Both the position numbers and the translations under genes were made by a program. A model generated the notes under the pieces. The model had not been told where the DNA came from, ran no database searches, and worked only from the letters and a program-made list of their open reading frames with translations. DNA of 32,752 nt from positions 1 through 32,752 of the IMG/VR virus record IMGVR_UViG_3300033064_002965. One strand, given 5' to 3'. Source of the DNA: a virus. Each line of letters opens with the position of its first letter. Positions within the stretch are counted from its first letter, which is position 1. This document shows positions 10,725 through 27,279 of the stretch, one piece after another.

Positions 10725-11189
10725 ATGCGAATTGCTGATATCATTAATGAAGAACAAACTTTAGATGAGTTAAGTCTTGCTGGGGTAGGTCAGGGAATTA
10801 AAAAAGCAGCCGGAGTTGTTGGTCGTGGAGCAGTTGCTGGAATTAAAGGAATCAGTAAAGCAGCAGGTTATATACCTGGCGCAATTGCTGGAGTAAAGCA
10901 GCAGTATGCTTCTGGAAAAGCTGCTGGAGCTTCTCAGTTTGGAACAAGTACACCTCCGGCAGCAAGTACACCTCCGGCAGCAAGAAATAACCCATTCAGT
11001 GATCCTGCTAAATTAAAACAATCATTTGACACTATCTCACAAGAATTATCTGGTGGGCAAGCCCAACAGTTAAAGCCTGTGATTAAAAGTATATGGATGC
11101 AGTTAGGCGGAACAAGAATTGAAGGTGCCCAAAATGACAAGGCACCTGTTGTTGAGTTTTATAGTAAATTCTTAGGTGGTAATATTTAA
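10725..11189 (+). CDS. Small virion-associated-like protein, function unknown
   Basis: A 154-residue protein. It starts MRIADIINEE, an N-terminus common to several structural proteins of T4-like aquatic phages, and the INE/LDE triplets fit the (I/L)xE cleavage preference of T4 gp21 protease, so it may be a processed head protein (inference). Residues ~18-65 are Gly/Ala/Lys-rich and helix-like (KKAAGVVGRGAVAGIKGI). A linker with STPPAA twice follows, then a helical C-terminal domain (residues ~90-154). Late promoter and AAGGAATT ribosome binding site upstream. Its stop overlaps, on the other strand, the stop of the gp26 frameshift product. Confidence 0.7.
   Translation: MRIADIINEEQTLDELSLAGVGQGIKKAAGVVGRGAVAGIKGISKAAGYIPGAIAGVKQQYASGKAAGASQFGTSTPPAASTPPAARNNPFSDPAKLKQSFDTISQELSGGQAQQLKPVIKSIWMQLGGTRIEGAQNDKAPVVEFYSKFLGGNI
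10946..10981 (+). repeat. Two perfect 18-base tandem repeats
   Basis: AAGTACACCTCCGGCAGC at 10946-10963 and 10964-10981, giving STPPAA twice in the linker of the preceding gene product. Identity at every base suggests a recent duplication. Confidence 0.9.
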
Positions 11190-12282
11190 AAAAATGGTAG
11201 TCCTGATGACTTGGTAGTTTCTAAGTTGTCAGCTACTATTTCATACATTAATTTTCTGCTATCTGGATCCAATTGGTATGCTTGCTCAATATTTAATGAC
11301 CCTCGCATGAACCAGCACAATTTAAATAAGTCCAATTTTAGATTTTTCGCTGAATTATCAAGGCTCTTAACATACTCTTCTATCTCAGAATTTGATAGAG
11401 TTAAGAGCCTTGACCGAAAAAATCTGAATTGTCTATAGAAAGTGGTAATTCATAAGTAGCAGGCGCTCCCAATGCAATATGCTCTTCACTTGATTCTAAT
11501 AAAAATGGTTTCAATCCGTTGCTTTCTTTCAAAGACGATAAATGCTTTTGAATTTTTTCATAAACTGATTTATCTGAATTCTTCAAAAATTCTCTGATAA
11601 ACTCTTTATTATGTACTACATTATCCGGAGTCTTGATATACTTAATACTGTCTGCAACCAAGTCAATGGTAATATCAGACAGCTTGTTAAAACTTTCATT
11701 GAATATTGTTAATTTTTGCTCATCGGTGAGATTATCGTTGTTTACTGTTTGCATAATACGTTGAGTTTCAAATGTTCTCAAACTGGTCATTGTAATATGA
11801 CGATATGTTAATGGATAAACAAAACAAGTTAATTCTGGGGTAATTTCTACAGTTTCTTTCCAAGTGGTATTTTGGGTAATACGATCTAATACTGTTCTTA
11901 AATCAATTGCATGCTCTACTTCTTCAGTTGTACCTGGAACAGTGTGTTTAATGTCCATCATTTCTCCGTATGTTGCAATACGAATCGAAATTAAAATAGT
12001 GTCTAGATCAACGCTTGGAGTTTTCCATGCATCTTTTACATTGGGCATGCAACTTTGAATAACATCAATAATTGCTTGACCATTCATTAGAGCATCAGGT
12101 GTTTTGAATGCTAATTCATCTTTTGCAGTCATAGAGAACACTGGAAATTCTAAATTTTCCGGTATTAATAAACTTCCTTCTTCCCAATATACTCCCTGAC
12201 TAGGCAAGGATATATAAATTTTTGGCTGACGCATAAAACTAGTTAATGGATTAACGTTCGCCTGTTGTTGAAAATTGTTCAT
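11186..12282 (-). CDS. gp26-like -1 frameshift fusion product (365 residues)
   Basis: If ribosomes slip -1 at T TTT TTC (minus strand, 11422-11416), translation continues from CGG at 11416 through 76 codons to TAA at 11188-11186. The product is 289 zero-frame residues plus a 76-residue extension. The extension looks like a real conserved domain (LFKLCWFMRGSLNIEQAYQL, then DNLETTKSSGLPFF), resembling small proteins next to gp26 in other T4-like phages. In this frame there is no ATG or GTG before the Met of WFMRG and only a TTG at about the 31st codon of the extension, so the domain cannot easily be made independently. The arrangement copies lambda G/GT and its relatives, where a chaperone and its -1 extended form act with the tape measure; a tape-measure-like gene is adjacent here. 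Frameshifting itself is inferred. Confidence 0.7.
11359..11422 (-). promoter_or_regulatory. Programmed -1 frameshift element (slippery site plus hairpin)
   Basis: Minus strand: heptamer TTTTTTC (11422-11416), 3-base spacer, then a perfect 13-bp stem CAAGGCTCTTAAC (11412-11400) with GTTAAGAGCCTTG (11371-11359). Inside the 28-base apical part, GATAG/CTATC (11398-11394 with 11384-11380) can add a second stem. The zero-frame stop TAA (11403-11401) lies within the main stem. Confidence 0.7.
11401..12282 (-). CDS. gp26: gp26-like baseplate/tail assembly protein, zero-frame product
   Basis: A 293-residue protein of the T4 gp26 (T4_baseplate) type: NPLTSFMRQPKIYISLPSQG, then LEFPVFSMTAKDELAFKTPD, ALMNGQAIIDVIQSCMPN, KDAWKTPSVDLDTILISIRI, ATYGEMMDI, PLTYRHITM and, at the end, SDFFGQGS. 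The family is needed for baseplate/tail assembly in T4. Start at 12282 is supported by CGGAGA seven bases upstream and a perfect minus-strand late box at 12322-12315. The last codons contain a slippery T TTT TTC followed by a stable hairpin, described in the fusion entry. It is divergent from the tape-measure-like gene, with overlapping promoters. Confidence 0.85.
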   Translation of the reverse strand: MNNFQQQANVNPLTSFMRQPKIYISLPSQGVYWEEGSLLIPENLEFPVFSMTAKDELAFKTPDALMNGQAIIDVIQSCMPNVKDAWKTPSVDLDTILISIRIATYGEMMDIKHTVPGTTEEVEHAIDLRTVLDRITQNTTWKETVEITPELTCFVYPLTYRHITMTSLRTFETQRIMQTVNNDNLTDEQKLTIFNESFNKLSDITIDLVADSIKYIKTPDNVVHNKEFIREFLKNSDKSVYEKIQKHLSSLKESNGLKPFLLESSEEHIALGAPATYELPLSIDNSDFFGQGS

Positions 12283-12346: not shown

Positions 12347-14557
12347 ATGGCAACCGATCAAATCTTATCAGAAATATTAATTGAACTACAAAAACTAAAC
12401 GCTAGTAATGGCGGGGGTGGCGGAGGTAGTGGCGGGGGAGGTAGTGGCGCTTCAAGTGCAGTCGGTGCATCACTGGCTAAAGTAGCAGGATTAATTGGTA
12501 AGCTAGGCGATAGTGTGATGTCGACTATGTCAACTATTGTTAATTTAGGAAAAACAGCAGCCGACGGAGCATCATCGCTGTCAAGTGTAACAACTGCACT
12601 TTCTGGACTGCCAGGACCGTTGGGTAAACTTGCAAGTGCTGCAACATTTGCAGCGGAGATGCTGGAAAAGAATTTGAAAGTACAGGAGGATTTATCCAAA
12701 TCTGGCGCGACATTTGGCGGAAATTTAGATTTAATGAGACAAAGTGCAGCATCGGCACATTTGGGATTAGACGAATTTGCATCAGCAGTTAAAAAAAATG
12801 CAACAATATTTAGTACAATGGGCGGCAACGTTCAGGACGGACTTAAACAATTTGTCGCAATCCAAAATAATTTAATGGCACCAGGCAGCGATATTCAAAA
12901 AAATCTATCATCTTTAGGTATTAGTGCAGCAGAAGCAGGAGATTTAACTGCAAGCTACATGAGAAGTCAAGGTTCTATGAATAAATCAGGATTACAGGAT
13001 GCTAAAGCAACTGCAGCCGCTGTACAAACTTATGCCCAAGAATTAACAATGCTTAGTAGCATTACTGGTAAAAGTCGTGAAGAAATCCAAAAGAAAATGG
13101 ATGAAGAGAATGCCGAAGCGCAATGGGCATCTTTGTTGGCGAGTATGGGCGCGGATAAAGCTGATAAAATGCGTCAAGGAATTCAAATGGCAATGATGCA
13201 AGGCGGTCAGGGCGCAGTTGATGCATTTAAATCTATGGCCCGGGGATTACCTCCAATGACCGAAGCTGCACAAATGTATACTGCAACTCAACACGCAGGA
13301 GTTGACGCATTAACTCAATATAATCAACGAGCAAATGATGCGGGCGTTAGTGTAAAAGAAAATGCTGATGCGAATAGAAAAACACTTGCTAAACAAATTG
13401 CAGATGGCGGCAAGGATCGTGAATCATTCAATGCCATTTTACAAGCCGATGCAGCAGCAGGCGGAAAACTTGCTGAAAGTTTTAAACAAGGTACTATTAC
13501 GCAAAATAGTTTTATGAAAGAAGGTAAGATGAGGAGTGAAGCAGAAATTCTTGCTTCTCTTGAAGAAGCAGACAAAAAAAGTAAAATAACAGCAAGTCAG
13601 GCCAGCGACGGTGCTACATTAAAATTAGCATTTCAAGAACTCACTAATAATATACTTGCAAAAATGATGCCAGCATTTAATTTTTTACTGGGTGTTGTAT
13701 TAAAAAGTACAGACGCAGTGGCTAAGTTCATAATGCCATTACTTGGTAAACTAGATTTTGCTCCATTAATGTCATTTCTAGATGAAATTTTTCAATCAAT
13801 TGACTGGGAAACACTAGGTGAAACTTTATCAGGAATAATGACTACTGTAATGAGTGTTATTACTTCAGTTGCATCATCATTAGAACCGTTGATGAAACAA
13901 ATTGTCACGGTAGTTAATAACTTAATGCCAAAACTTTTACCAATTTTTGAAAATATTGGTGTTATTATTAACCGTACATTCGAAGTATTATCGCCACTAT
14001 TGACTCCTATCATTAACGGAATTGAGATAGTGCTAGGGGGTCTGTTTACTATGCTAGGCGGTATTATTGATATAATCAAAGGACTAATGACTGGAAATTG
14101 GAAAGAAGTTGGTACAGGGTTATTAGATACAGTTGGCGGATTCATTAAAGGGTTGTATGGTATCATAAAAATAATTAAAGATATACTAGTAGGGGGAGTA
14201 AGGGGAATATGGAATTTCTTTACAGGCAGCACACCTGATAAAGTAGTTGAAGCACCTACAGCAGCACCTGCAACTCCGAAAGCAACTTCGAGGAATACAG
14301 TAGAAAAATCTGCTCCATTAAAAGGAAAACAAATGGCATCTGCATTGCATAAAGCTGATGAAGTGCCAATTACAGGAGAAGATTCTGTACAATCTACTAC
14401 TGTTGCAACTGCTAGTAGTGCAGATACTGTCTCTGCACAACTTTCTTTATTGAATGCATCTGTATTAGAAATGATAAAATATTTAAAAGAAACTGCAGAC
14501 CATACAAGACGCAATGTTGATGCTACTAAAGGGTTGAGCGGCAATTTGTTTGCATAA
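12347..14557 (+). CDS. Tail tape-measure-like protein
   Basis: A 736-residue protein. A short N-terminal helix (ILSEILIELQKLN) is followed by a glycine/serine linker at residues 22-34. Then come long Ala-rich helical stretches to ~residue 430, hydrophobic segments at ~445-475 (MPAFNFLLGVVLKS, AKFIMPLLGKL) and ~540-625 (LLTPIINGIEIVLGGLFTML, then GGIIDIIKGLM), and a polar C-terminus. Long helices plus membrane-like hydrophobic hairpins are the hallmark of tape-measure proteins, which set tail length and help DNA pass the host membrane. T4 gp29 has 590 residues but low similarity would be expected. The adjacent gp26-like gene with a frameshift signal fits a tape-measure/chaperone pair. Late promoter at 12293-12300. 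Confidence 0.7.
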   Translation: MATDQILSEILIELQKLNASNGGGGGGSGGGGSGASSAVGASLAKVAGLIGKLGDSVMSTMSTIVNLGKTAADGASSLSSVTTALSGLPGPLGKLASAATFAAEMLEKNLKVQEDLSKSGATFGGNLDLMRQSAASAHLGLDEFASAVKKNATIFSTMGGNVQDGLKQFVAIQNNLMAPGSDIQKNLSSLGISAAEAGDLTASYMRSQGSMNKSGLQDAKATAAAVQTYAQELTMLSSITGKSREEIQKKMDEENAEAQWASLLASMGADKADKMRQGIQMAMMQGGQGAVDAFKSMARGLPPMTEAAQMYTATQHAGVDALTQYNQRANDAGVSVKENADANRKTLAKQIADGGKDRESFNAILQADAAAGGKLAESFKQGTITQNSFMKEGKMRSEAEILASLEEADKKSKITASQASDGATLKLAFQELTNNILAKMMPAFNFLLGVVLKSTDAVAKFIMPLLGKLDFAPLMSFLDEIFQSIDWETLGETLSGIMTTVMSVITSVASSLEPLMKQIVTVVNNLMPKLLPIFENIGVIINRTFEVLSPLLTPIINGIEIVLGGLFTMLGGIIDIIKGLMTGNWKEVGTGLLDTVGGFIKGLYGIIKIIKDILVGGVRGIWNFFTGSTPDKVVEAPTAAPATPKATSRNTVEKSAPLKGKQMASALHKADEVPITGEDSVQSTTVATASSADTVSAQLSLLNASVLEMIKYLKETADHTRRNVDATKGLSGNLFA

Positions 14558-22971: not shown

Positions 22972-25900
22972 ATGGCTACTCCAGTAATACTGTCAAGAAT
23001 ATCAGGTAAAGTAACTACCACTACTGGCGGCGACAATACGTTCTCCGCTCCGTCAGGTAACATTAATCTTGTTTCAACTGTAACCAATATTACTAATTAC
23101 ACAGTGATACAGGGTACTGGAAATGTAGATAATCCTCTTGGATTTAAATACAATCCTGACGATATTTATAGCAGCATAGAACACCGGACTGGTGGTGCAC
23201 TATATGTAGCCGGCGGAGTAGGTATTGAAAAAGATTTAAATGTAGGTGGATTTATTTACGGCAGGATTAGTTTTGCAACCACTTCTTCACAGTTAGTTAT
23301 TAAGTCGACTGATTTGGATGCAGTGTTTTATCCAACCTTTACTGATAACCCTGATGCCGGCGGAATTATTTACGCTGATAAAACAGGGACTGGTGGTGGT
23401 CTAAAATATAATCCTAATAAAGGATTATTAACATTAGAAAAATTATTAGCAATATCCACTGCATCCTCGACTTCTACTACTACAGGAGCCATTGTTGTAT
23501 CAGGCGGAGTAGGAATTGGTGAAAACTTATACGTATCAGGAGCTGTTGTATCATCAAGTCTACAACCTGCAACTGATAATAAATTTGCTATTGGTAGTAC
23601 AAGTACACAATGGGCTGATGCATATATAGAAAATATTTATACTCGCGTTATTTCATCAACAACTGGTACTGTTCAAATTAATCCCGCAGCAGGTGTTACT
23701 GAAATTATTGGAGATATTCGTGTATTGGGTCAAAAGCCAATAGGTACTGCTCCAGTAGTTACTAATATTTTATATGTTACCATGGATGGAAATGATACCA
23801 ACGATGGCCGCGCAATGGATTCGAGTCGTGCGTGCCGAACAGTTACAGGCGCAGTAAATTCAGAATACTACCAGCCAGGTACTCAGATTCGTGTAGCACC
23901 CGGCCGCTATTTAGAAGATAACCCAATTGCATTAAAACCGTATACTAGTATTGTTGGTGCGGATTTACGTACTACTAGTATTGAACCTATTAACAAAACT
24001 CAAGATTTATTTCACTTAAACAGCGGCTGCTATCTTGCACAAATGCAATTCCTGAACGGGCGTAGTGGTTTATTAGAAGGTCCATATGATACTAGATTTA
24101 ATCGTGGAGCATATTGTACATCGTTTCCGCCATTAAAAGGCGATGCTCGAATCAATTTGTTTCATAGTCCGTATATTCAAAACTGTACTAATCTAAGCGG
24201 CCCTTGGTTAAGAGATGGCACTCAGTTTATTCCTAATCAAACAGTACAAATTCCATCAGCAGTGGGCATTGGATCGTGGGACGTTAACACTGCTACCATT
24301 ACATTACAAGTATCATCGGGTGACATTCAAGTAGGCATGAGCGTCAATTCAGGACAGCAGAATCCAGGGTTTTTCAATGCTCGAACATTACTGCTGGCAA
24401 ATAAACAATTTATGCAGGAACAAGTCGTTGCTTATGTAGATGCTTCCCAATTATTTCCAGGAACAATATATTCACGTGAGAAATTTTTTAGGAACATTGG
24501 TATACTAGTTGAAAATATTTCCTACGATGCTGCATTTGGTGGAAATGAAAAAGCAATAGAAAGTGGACTAGCATATTACAAAGGTGTAGTAAGTTTAATT
24601 GCTGGACAGGAATTACAAACTATTGCAGCTATAGAATACTTGGAAGGATTGATGCAGTCCATCATTGTAAATGCAGCATGTACTGATTTATATTCTAACG
24701 GGGCAACATCTAGTGCAATATATCAGCAAGTTATTAATTATGTGCTGATAGGTGGCGAGATTTCAAGTCCGTCATTGAGTAATTTAACTGCCATAATTAT
24801 AAACATTATTAAAAATGGAATAACTGTAGCGCCAACACTTTATAAAAGTGCAGGCCCTGATGCAGCATTTGTAAGCGCTGAAATTTTATTAAATGCAAAT
24901 AGAACATTAATACAGGAAGACACTTCTAATTGGATTACTACTACATTTCCTTTATTTGAATATAATCGTGCTAAATGTTATCGAGATATTGGTTTAATTA
25001 TTGATGCAGTGAGCCAAGATGTATTACTAGGTGGAAATGCTAAATCAATTGAAGCTGGGCTTGCTTATTGGAGCTCCGGATATAATTCTATAACAGGACA
25101 AGAAACTACTACAACACTTGCAATCAGTTATGCAGCAGGATTAGCATTATCAGTAATTGCTAACAGTCCAGCTACATTACAGTTAACTACCACTGCCAAG
25201 CAAATAATTAATCCATTCTTTCAATACGGTGGCGATTATATGCCAAGCCAAGCAGTTGAGCGAAATTTTAATATTATTAAAACTATTATTGAACGAGGAC
25301 CGCTATACGCACCTATTTCATATGTAGGTAGCGGATTATTTGGATTAACAGGTATAAATGGGGCAGATGTTAAGTTGGCTCCAACTGTTATTTCAGTAAC
25401 ACAAGAATCATCAGGCACTACTTATATAGTTACATTAGACATACCAACAGTAGGGTTTGGCAATAATGCTACTTTGTATTTTGGGAGCACTGCAGTTTTT
25501 CCCATGCAAGATGAAGAATTTCGAGCACTAAGTTTGGAATTAACCAATAATGAAACAACCTGGGATCAACGCCGAGTAGATCCAGTTGGTGGTATGGGGG
25601 GTAGCTTGGTAGATGGTGCAGTTATTTCTCCTATTTCTCCTATTCAATCATTTGTATATGATGCATTTACTCAGCTGACTCAAGGCGGTCGAGGGATTCA
25701 TATTACAAATGATGGGTATGCGCAATTAGTGTCTGTATTTACAATTTTTTCTTCTGTTGGGGTACAAACTGATAATGGTGGTATCGCAAGTATTGTTAAC
25801 AGTAATGCTAACTTTGGTGATATTTGTTTATTGGCAAAAGGATACGGACGCCGCAAATTTACTGGTACTATATATAATCCTGCAAATAAAGCATATCCTG

Positions 25901-27279
25901 ATAATATTGAATTAAATGAGTATTATCCACAAGGTTTCTGGCCAAATAACGCAAGAATTGAAGTGTTTTTGCCCGATATTGTTGATAGACCACACATTAG
26001 TTTGATAATGGAAATAGAACCACCTGCTGCTCATATTAACGAGCAAGCATTGCCTGGATTCTTAAACGCAATTCCAAATAAAGCAGTATTAACTGCGGGT
26101 ACTATTGTAATTGAAGACATAGTAACCGACGGTATTGCAGTAGGCAATGTACTGTATATTAGAGATCAATTTGGTAGTACTAAAGGAAATGACGGATTGC
26201 TGTATGCCGATACTAATACAATCGTAACTGATGTTGGTTACAGAAGTGTTACTTTAAGTAATGCGTTAACCAGTGGCGGTGGCGATGCAGAAAATAATAA
26301 CTATTTTAGTCTATATTTCTGCGGTAACAGTTATTATACAGTATTAAGCAGTGAAGTTGCTACTAATCCAAAAGAAGCAGGTATTAATTTATTATCGCCT
26401 GCTGCAACTGGATTAGCAGAAGATCAAGTTCCGGCACATATTGACAGTTTAAATAAATTAAATTCTTTAATTAATAGTATTATTCAAAATGAAGTAATTG
26501 ATAATCAAGTATCCGATGTTTCTAATAAACAAGTTTTTTTACCCACTGTATTTGACGGCGTGTTAGCAACTGGCTTTATTGCAGATAGATTTAATGAAAT
26601 TATTAGTATAATAGGTGCTGTTGATTATACAACTGCTAATTCAATAGTCCCATTAAAATCTCGTAATAAATCAGGGACTCCTTCAGAAGGTGCAGGTAGC
26701 GCAATTACATTAATCACTGCTAATATTAATTTTCTTGCAGCAGAAGTATCTGCATATGTTGCTGCAGCGAATCCTAATTTGGTATTCAGAGATGATAAAT
26801 GTCAACGTGATACTAAAATTATTGTACAGAGATTGCTTTACGATTTAGAAACTGGCGGAAAATATAACTCCGTAATGGTAGGATTGAGCTACTGGTCTCG
26901 TAACGGTACACATCATATTGTGCAATTAGGTGAGAATGTAAGGCGTAATGATTTGTTTCCTGATGGGTCCACTGTGAATTTCTATCAGCGCAGCTACATG
27001 AGTGCAAGTGGATACGTATTTGAATATGTGGGTGCAGGAACCAACTACGGAGCATTACCGCAAGTAGGACGAGCAGATCCAGTACAAGGAAAAGAAACAG
27101 TTCAATTAGACAGCGGTAAAGTATTCTTTACATCAACTGACCAAAATGGCGATTTTAGAATTGGTCCAGGATTGGTGATTAGTCAAGCTACCGGTGTATT
27201 AAGCGGTAGAACATTTACTAAATCATTATTTGCTAATATGACCCCATTCATATTAGCTATCGAAGGCGGCGGAGTTTAA
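22972..27279 (+). CDS. Large virion structural/fibre protein with beta-helix-like region
   Basis: A 1435-residue protein. The N-terminus (to ~250) has two copies of the shared fibre module (GGALYVAGGVGIEKDLNVGG; TGAIVVSGGVGIGENLYVSG). Residues ~264-400 look like a right-handed beta-helix start (VTMDGNDTNDGRAMDSS, AVNSEYYQPGTQIRVAPGRY, PYTSIVGADLRTTSIEP), as in aquatic-phage fibre proteins. Three helical repeats follow, near residues 500, 666 and 1275 (for example RDIGLIIDAVSQDVLLGGN, then AKSIEAGLAYW). The second beta-rich part (~820-1100) holds GGRGIHITNDGYAQLVSVFT and KGYGRRKFTGTIYNP. The C-terminus ends FFTSTDQNGDFRIGPGLVIS. It is probably a tail fibre or baseplate-attached decoration; the receptor target is unknown. 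AAGGAA before the ATG. Confidence 0.8.
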   Translation: MATPVILSRISGKVTTTTGGDNTFSAPSGNINLVSTVTNITNYTVIQGTGNVDNPLGFKYNPDDIYSSIEHRTGGALYVAGGVGIEKDLNVGGFIYGRISFATTSSQLVIKSTDLDAVFYPTFTDNPDAGGIIYADKTGTGGGLKYNPNKGLLTLEKLLAISTASSTSTTTGAIVVSGGVGIGENLYVSGAVVSSSLQPATDNKFAIGSTSTQWADAYIENIYTRVISSTTGTVQINPAAGVTEIIGDIRVLGQKPIGTAPVVTNILYVTMDGNDTNDGRAMDSSRACRTVTGAVNSEYYQPGTQIRVAPGRYLEDNPIALKPYTSIVGADLRTTSIEPINKTQDLFHLNSGCYLAQMQFLNGRSGLLEGPYDTRFNRGAYCTSFPPLKGDARINLFHSPYIQNCTNLSGPWLRDGTQFIPNQTVQIPSAVGIGSWDVNTATITLQVSSGDIQVGMSVNSGQQNPGFFNARTLLLANKQFMQEQVVAYVDASQLFPGTIYSREKFFRNIGILVENISYDAAFGGNEKAIESGLAYYKGVVSLIAGQELQTIAAIEYLEGLMQSIIVNAACTDLYSNGATSSAIYQQVINYVLIGGEISSPSLSNLTAIIINIIKNGITVAPTLYKSAGPDAAFVSAEILLNANRTLIQEDTSNWITTTFPLFEYNRAKCYRDIGLIIDAVSQDVLLGGNAKSIEAGLAYWSSGYNSITGQETTTTLAISYAAGLALSVIANSPATLQLTTTAKQIINPFFQYGGDYMPSQAVERNFNIIKTIIERGPLYAPISYVGSGLFGLTGINGADVKLAPTVISVTQESSGTTYIVTLDIPTVGFGNNATLYFGSTAVFPMQDEEFRALSLELTNNETTWDQRRVDPVGGMGGSLVDGAVISPISPIQSFVYDAFTQLTQGGRGIHITNDGYAQLVSVFTIFSSVGVQTDNGGIASIVNSNANFGDICLLAKGYGRRKFTGTIYNPANKAYPDNIELNEYYPQGFWPNNARIEVFLPDIVDRPHISLIMEIEPPAAHINEQALPGFLNAIPNKAVLTAGTIVIEDIVTDGIAVGNVLYIRDQFGSTKGNDGLLYADTNTIVTDVGYRSVTLSNALTSGGGDAENNNYFSLYFCGNSYYTVLSSEVATNPKEAGINLLSPAATGLAEDQVPAHIDSLNKLNSLINSIIQNEVIDNQVSDVSNKQVFLPTVFDGVLATGFIADRFNEIISIIGAVDYTTANSIVPLKSRNKSGTPSEGAGSAITLITANINFLAAEVSAYVAAANPNLVFRDDKCQRDTKIIVQRLLYDLETGGKYNSVMVGLSYWSRNGTHHIVQLGENVRRNDLFPDGSTVNFYQRSYMSASGYVFEYVGAGTNYGALPQVGRADPVQGKETVQLDSGKVFFTSTDQNGDFRIGPGLVISQATGVLSGRTFTKSLFANMTPFILAIEGGGV

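Follow-up and report, generated by a model that had tools for sequence, protein, structure and literature searches.

A gp26-like gene of a T4-type virus that very probably yields a tail-assembly chaperone pair by -1 frameshifting

On the minus strand of an uncultured virus, a gene of the gp26 family ends a few codons past a run of six T residues, and another frame continues open beyond its stop. Is the small domain encoded there a gene in its own right, or an extension of the gp26-like protein made by ribosomes slipping back one base? The window, i.e. the whole stretch of DNA analysed, is an IMG/VR virus record of 32,752 bases, and the genes surrounding the locus are of T4 type (late sigma factor, SbcC/SbcD resembling gp46/47, portal). 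The locus includes the following features.

12282 to 11401, minus strand: gp26-like gene (TAC-N), zero-frame product of 293 residues (PF12322, E = 5.7e-12; phrog_150, baseplate hub, E = 8.8e-14; AlphaFold2 mean pLDDT 91.7)
11422 to 11416, minus strand: slippery heptamer T_TTT_TTC, in phase with gp26 (sequence; conserved in relatives)
11413 to 11400, minus strand: 5' arm of a probable stimulatory stem of 14 Watson-Crick pairs, position 11414 adding a G-U pair (RNA folding, stem search)
11403 to 11401, minus strand: zero-frame stop TAA, within the 5' arm (sequence)
11399 to 11379, minus strand: inner hairpin of 6 bp, stacked on the main stem (RNA folding)
11371 to 11358, minus strand: 3' arm of the probable stimulatory stem, position 11357 adding the G-U pair (RNA folding, stem search)
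11416 to 11189, minus strand: -1 frame extension of 76 codons (RSRLL...WFMRG...GLPFF), the predicted TAC-C domain (aligned with 36 relatives; AlphaFold2 mean pLDDT 91.0, all helical)
11188 to 11186, minus strand: TAA, stop of the -1 frame (sequence)
12347 to 14557, plus strand: divergent neighbour, probable tape-measure protein (profile and BLASTP matches)

A convergent plus-strand ORF of 154 residues (10725 to 11189), for which no convincing family match was found, has an end that overlaps the -1 frame's stop by 4 bases, and a unit of about 18 bases is duplicated on the strand opposite to it near 10940-10985 (ctgccggaggtgtacttg). Elsewhere in the window, positions 22972-27279 encode a tail-fibre-like protein of 1435 residues, separate stretches of which match several PHROG tail fibre families.

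The slippery heptamer and the frame beyond it

The minus strand reads ...GAT TTT TTC GGT CAA GGC TCT TAA at the 3' end of the gp26-like gene. The heptamer thus falls in the phase X_XXY_YYZ relative to gp26 (GAT TTT TTC), and the -1 frame, beginning at CGG 11416, is open for 76 codons. Site, phase, open frame and the location of the zero-frame stop within the stem's 5' arm are all as described in the initial annotation.

Relatives were collected by searching IMG/VR with a profile of the -1 domain. The search returned at least 598 matching stretches, and the best 80 of these, together with loci retrieved earlier, form a set of 98 relatives in which the W[FYHW]MRG domain is present and the site is in view; locus L014, which ends before the slippery site, was left out. 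Having been picked by the -1 domain, the relatives are no random sample, and the heptamer itself was absent from the query. TTTTTTC is found in phase in 98 of the 98. The distance from the heptamer to the W codon of the motif is 101 nt in 97 of them and 104 nt in Phosso, and the zero-frame stop comes 1 or 4 codons past the FF dipeptide. In the 86 unique gap-free sequences the seven columns of the heptamer and the following G are invariant, while adjacent columns vary.

The site extends to cultured phages. Among 15 isolated jumbo phages that have an annotated gp26, 14 carry T_TTT_TTC at the FF dipeptide near the end of gp26, and the remaining one, XacN1, has T_TTT_TTT. T_TTT_TTC is also found at the gp26 end in cyanophages ACG-2014g, S-PM2, S-WAM2 and P-SSM4 and in Vibrio phage ValKK3, and T_TTT_TTG takes its place in rhizobial phages RHph_I9 and phiM9. 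In phage CM1, too, FF lies near the gp26 end, and another frame, bearing a YFRG motif, is open. Altogether, about 120 related phage sequences were examined, and the slippery site is kept in all of them.

Not one of the 86 unique sequences has a stop codon in the -1 frame, versus 491 and 426 stops in the other two frames, each of which is interrupted in every sequence. Variability at the three codon positions (1.18, 0.76 and 1.61 bits in the -1 phase) is that of a frame under selection at the protein level. Because heptamer, phase, spacing and -1 frame are conserved jointly in very divergent phages, there is strong support for the proposal of the initial annotation, that a programmed -1 frameshift extends a gp26-type protein as in lambda G/GT. 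The gp26-like gene very probably yields, on this sequence evidence, both TAC-N and the frameshifted product TAC-NC, which would form a tail-assembly chaperone pair.

It is highly unlikely that the small domain is instead an independent gene, on which ribosomes re-initiate by coupling once they reach the gp26 stop, with the heptamer incidental. Databases do list it as a separate gene, an ATG overlaps or adjoins the gp26 stop in some relatives (Phosso, Atu_ph07, 121Q), and an ATG falls within the first four -1 codons in 10 of the 98. However, no start codon is found in these four codons in the window and in 82 of the 98 relatives, and none anywhere before the W in 13; a separate start was rejected on these grounds. 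As initially annotated, neither ATG nor GTG precedes WFMRG in the window, where just two late TTG codons occur. In the alignment with 36 relatives, moreover, protein conservation starts precisely at the slip site (FFR.RLL), and the heptamer is invariant. Both frameshifting and re-initiation could operate in those few lineages where an ATG is present.

Transcriptional slippage on the T run, by which frame-shifted mRNAs would encode the long form, is extremely improbable. Six T residues do stand just before the shift in every sequence, but a run of six is short for polymerase slippage, and the alternative was rejected on this account; longer runs appear only in outliers such as XacN1, and ribosomal slippage accounts better for the downstream stem and for the C and G that invariantly follow the run. 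Chance occurrence of the heptamer is ruled out by its presence in phase in all 98 relatives, given that T_TTT_TTC encodes only 13 of 100 FF dipeptides elsewhere in the long ORFs of the fetched loci.

According to the frameshift model, most ribosomes would terminate at the zero-frame TAA and release the short gp26-like TAC-N of 293 residues. A minority would pause at the stem just 3' of T_TTT_TTC, slip back by one base and terminate after 76 further codons; the product would be TAC-N joined to the small helical C-terminal domain, i.e. a TAC-NC of about 365 residues. By analogy with lambda gpG/gpGT, both forms may hold the tape-measure protein and help to start assembly of the tail tube and hub.

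A stem with changing partners

A 13-bp stem at a 3-base spacer had been initially annotated. The strong stem stands, whereas its length was underestimated: 14 Watson-Crick pairs form at a spacer of 2 bases, 15 if the outer G-U pair is included, and the spacer is 3 when 13 bp are counted. The RNA 3' of the heptamer has a minimum free energy of -27.4 kcal/mol, versus -12.4 +/- 2.6 for shuffled sequences (z = -5.7).

Of the 86 unique sequences, 60 have a stem of 8 bp or more that begins no farther than 10 nt from the heptamer, versus 3-22 at six upstream control offsets; for stems of 10 bp or more the figures are 47 and 0-5. The 5' arm is fixed, while the distance to the 3' arm takes four main values (partner index about 33, 51/52, 71 and 85), and within each register matching changes occur in both arms (IMG/VR loci L001-L117). 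About 26 of the 86 lack any simple stem within reach, and the stem is therefore not universal. Folding in these sequences shows no excess (mean z -0.2, versus -3.8 for those with a stem).

The stem may tentatively be regarded as the moving part of the system, a reading somewhat short of even chances: a fixed 5' arm would have taken 3' partners in at least four registers across lineages, and one group would have dropped the stem while keeping the heptamer. If this is true, the efficiency of frameshifting would be tuned through the choice of the 3' partner. As part of the same tentative picture, the origin of the C-terminal domain may differ between jumbo phages and cyanophages.

Relation to T4 and to known chaperone systems

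Membership of the gp26-like protein in the gp26 family is established directly, the PF12322 (T4_baseplate) profile scoring 46.2 bits, above the curated cut-off of 24.5. The protein matches 62 phage records by tblastn; in essence these are jumbo phages that carry T4-like genes, among them RaK2, 121Q, GAP32, CBB, PA5oct/MIJ3, Atu_ph07 and Phosso. Foldseek searches of the PDB with the models of the gp26 part and of the C-terminal domain gave no significant match; the hits in a viral library were uncharacterised small phage proteins and, weakly and without significance, the 'tape measure chaperone' of phage Moogle.

The neighbour at 12347 to 14557 is a probable tape-measure protein, as initially suggested, judging from weak profile matches (phrog_14121, 'virion structural protein', 7e-10; phrog_6090, 'tail length tape measure', 7.6e-5) and from BLASTP matches to RaK2 ORF088 (1e-10), annotated as 'similar to a tape measure', and to 121Q gp597 (2e-8). 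It adjoins the gp26-like gene, but is divergent rather than downstream.

The predicted pair has its parallel in lambda gpG/gpGT and P2 E/E+E', each a short protein and a -1 frameshifted long protein encoded near the tape-measure gene. The lambda slip site is a heptamer different from T_TTT_TTC. Vladimirov and co-workers reportedly found frameshifting conserved in several T4-like groups, the T4 group using genes 26 and 51.

In T4 itself the short and long forms seem to be encoded by two separate genes, since gp51 matches both PF12322 (residues 1-201, 3.9e-52) and phrog_634 (residues 147-246, 1.2e-23), and the FF of gene 26 is encoded by the non-slippery TTC TTT. The window gene shares the PF12322 family with T4 gene 26, and gp51 corresponds to a gp26-like part plus a C-terminal phrog_634 part; the T4 genes, in contrast, lie on opposite strands. 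The cyanophage -1 ORF belongs to the family annotated as gp51 or hub assembly catalyst (phrog_634, 7.9e-31), a family that the -1 domain of the window did not match. Comparison of the window's domain with its counterparts in cyanophages or T4 gp51 gave no significant sequence match (hhalign E about 0.05; a single gp51 sequence in one comparison). The marine and jumbo versions of the domain match each other at E = 4e-14, versus E = 0.002 at 12% probability for the jumbo and cyanophage domains, and 0.05 for the marine and cyanophage domains.

The remark of the initial annotation, that it knew of no established case in T4-like phages, is not supported: the strategy was reported by Vladimirov, Gautam & Davidson (2022, Virology 566:9-15). 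As cited in PMC10885494 (PRFect), that work describes T4-like phages with short and fused long copies and no frameshifting; as cited in PMC12846349 (phage Adele), it describes T4-like phages whose TAC-N genes contain slippery poly-T sequences. As far as these citing papers convey it, the system resembles the present one in that a gp26-family short form ends at a poly-T site, the long form carries a small domain at its C-terminus, encoded in the -1 frame, and a tape-measure gene, here a probable one, is nearby. The present lineage differs in being uncultured or jumbo, in having the gene divergent to the probable tape-measure gene, in a C-terminal domain far in sequence from that of cyanophages, and in the strong downstream stem. 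The TAC genes of Vandenendeviridae and Andersonviridae also shift to -1 at a poly-T site ending TAC-N, and there too the open -1 frame is usually annotated as a separate ORF; they differ by an invariant GTTTTT motif and belong to other phage families (PMC12846349).

Significance for jumbo and uncultured phages

Two points seem additional here: the stem with its shifting registers, and the reach into lineages of jumbo and of uncultured phages. In the literature searched, the 2022 study being known through citing papers, no paper naming the jumbo-phage case was found. The jumbo-phage records examined truncate, split or omit the long form. In GenBank the -1 domain of Atu_ph07, Munch, XaC1, CBB, GAP32 and Hallingskeid is annotated as a truncated separate ORF with an internal start, and in the RaK2 and MIJ3 records it is unannotated (loci L017, L019, L020, L023, L025, L028, L029, L032).

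The locus offers a clear target for proteomics, and the natural series of stems lends itself to tests of frameshift efficiency. The wide range of phages in which the arrangement occurs supports the view that lambda G and GT have their equivalents in gp26 and gp51 of T4-like phages.
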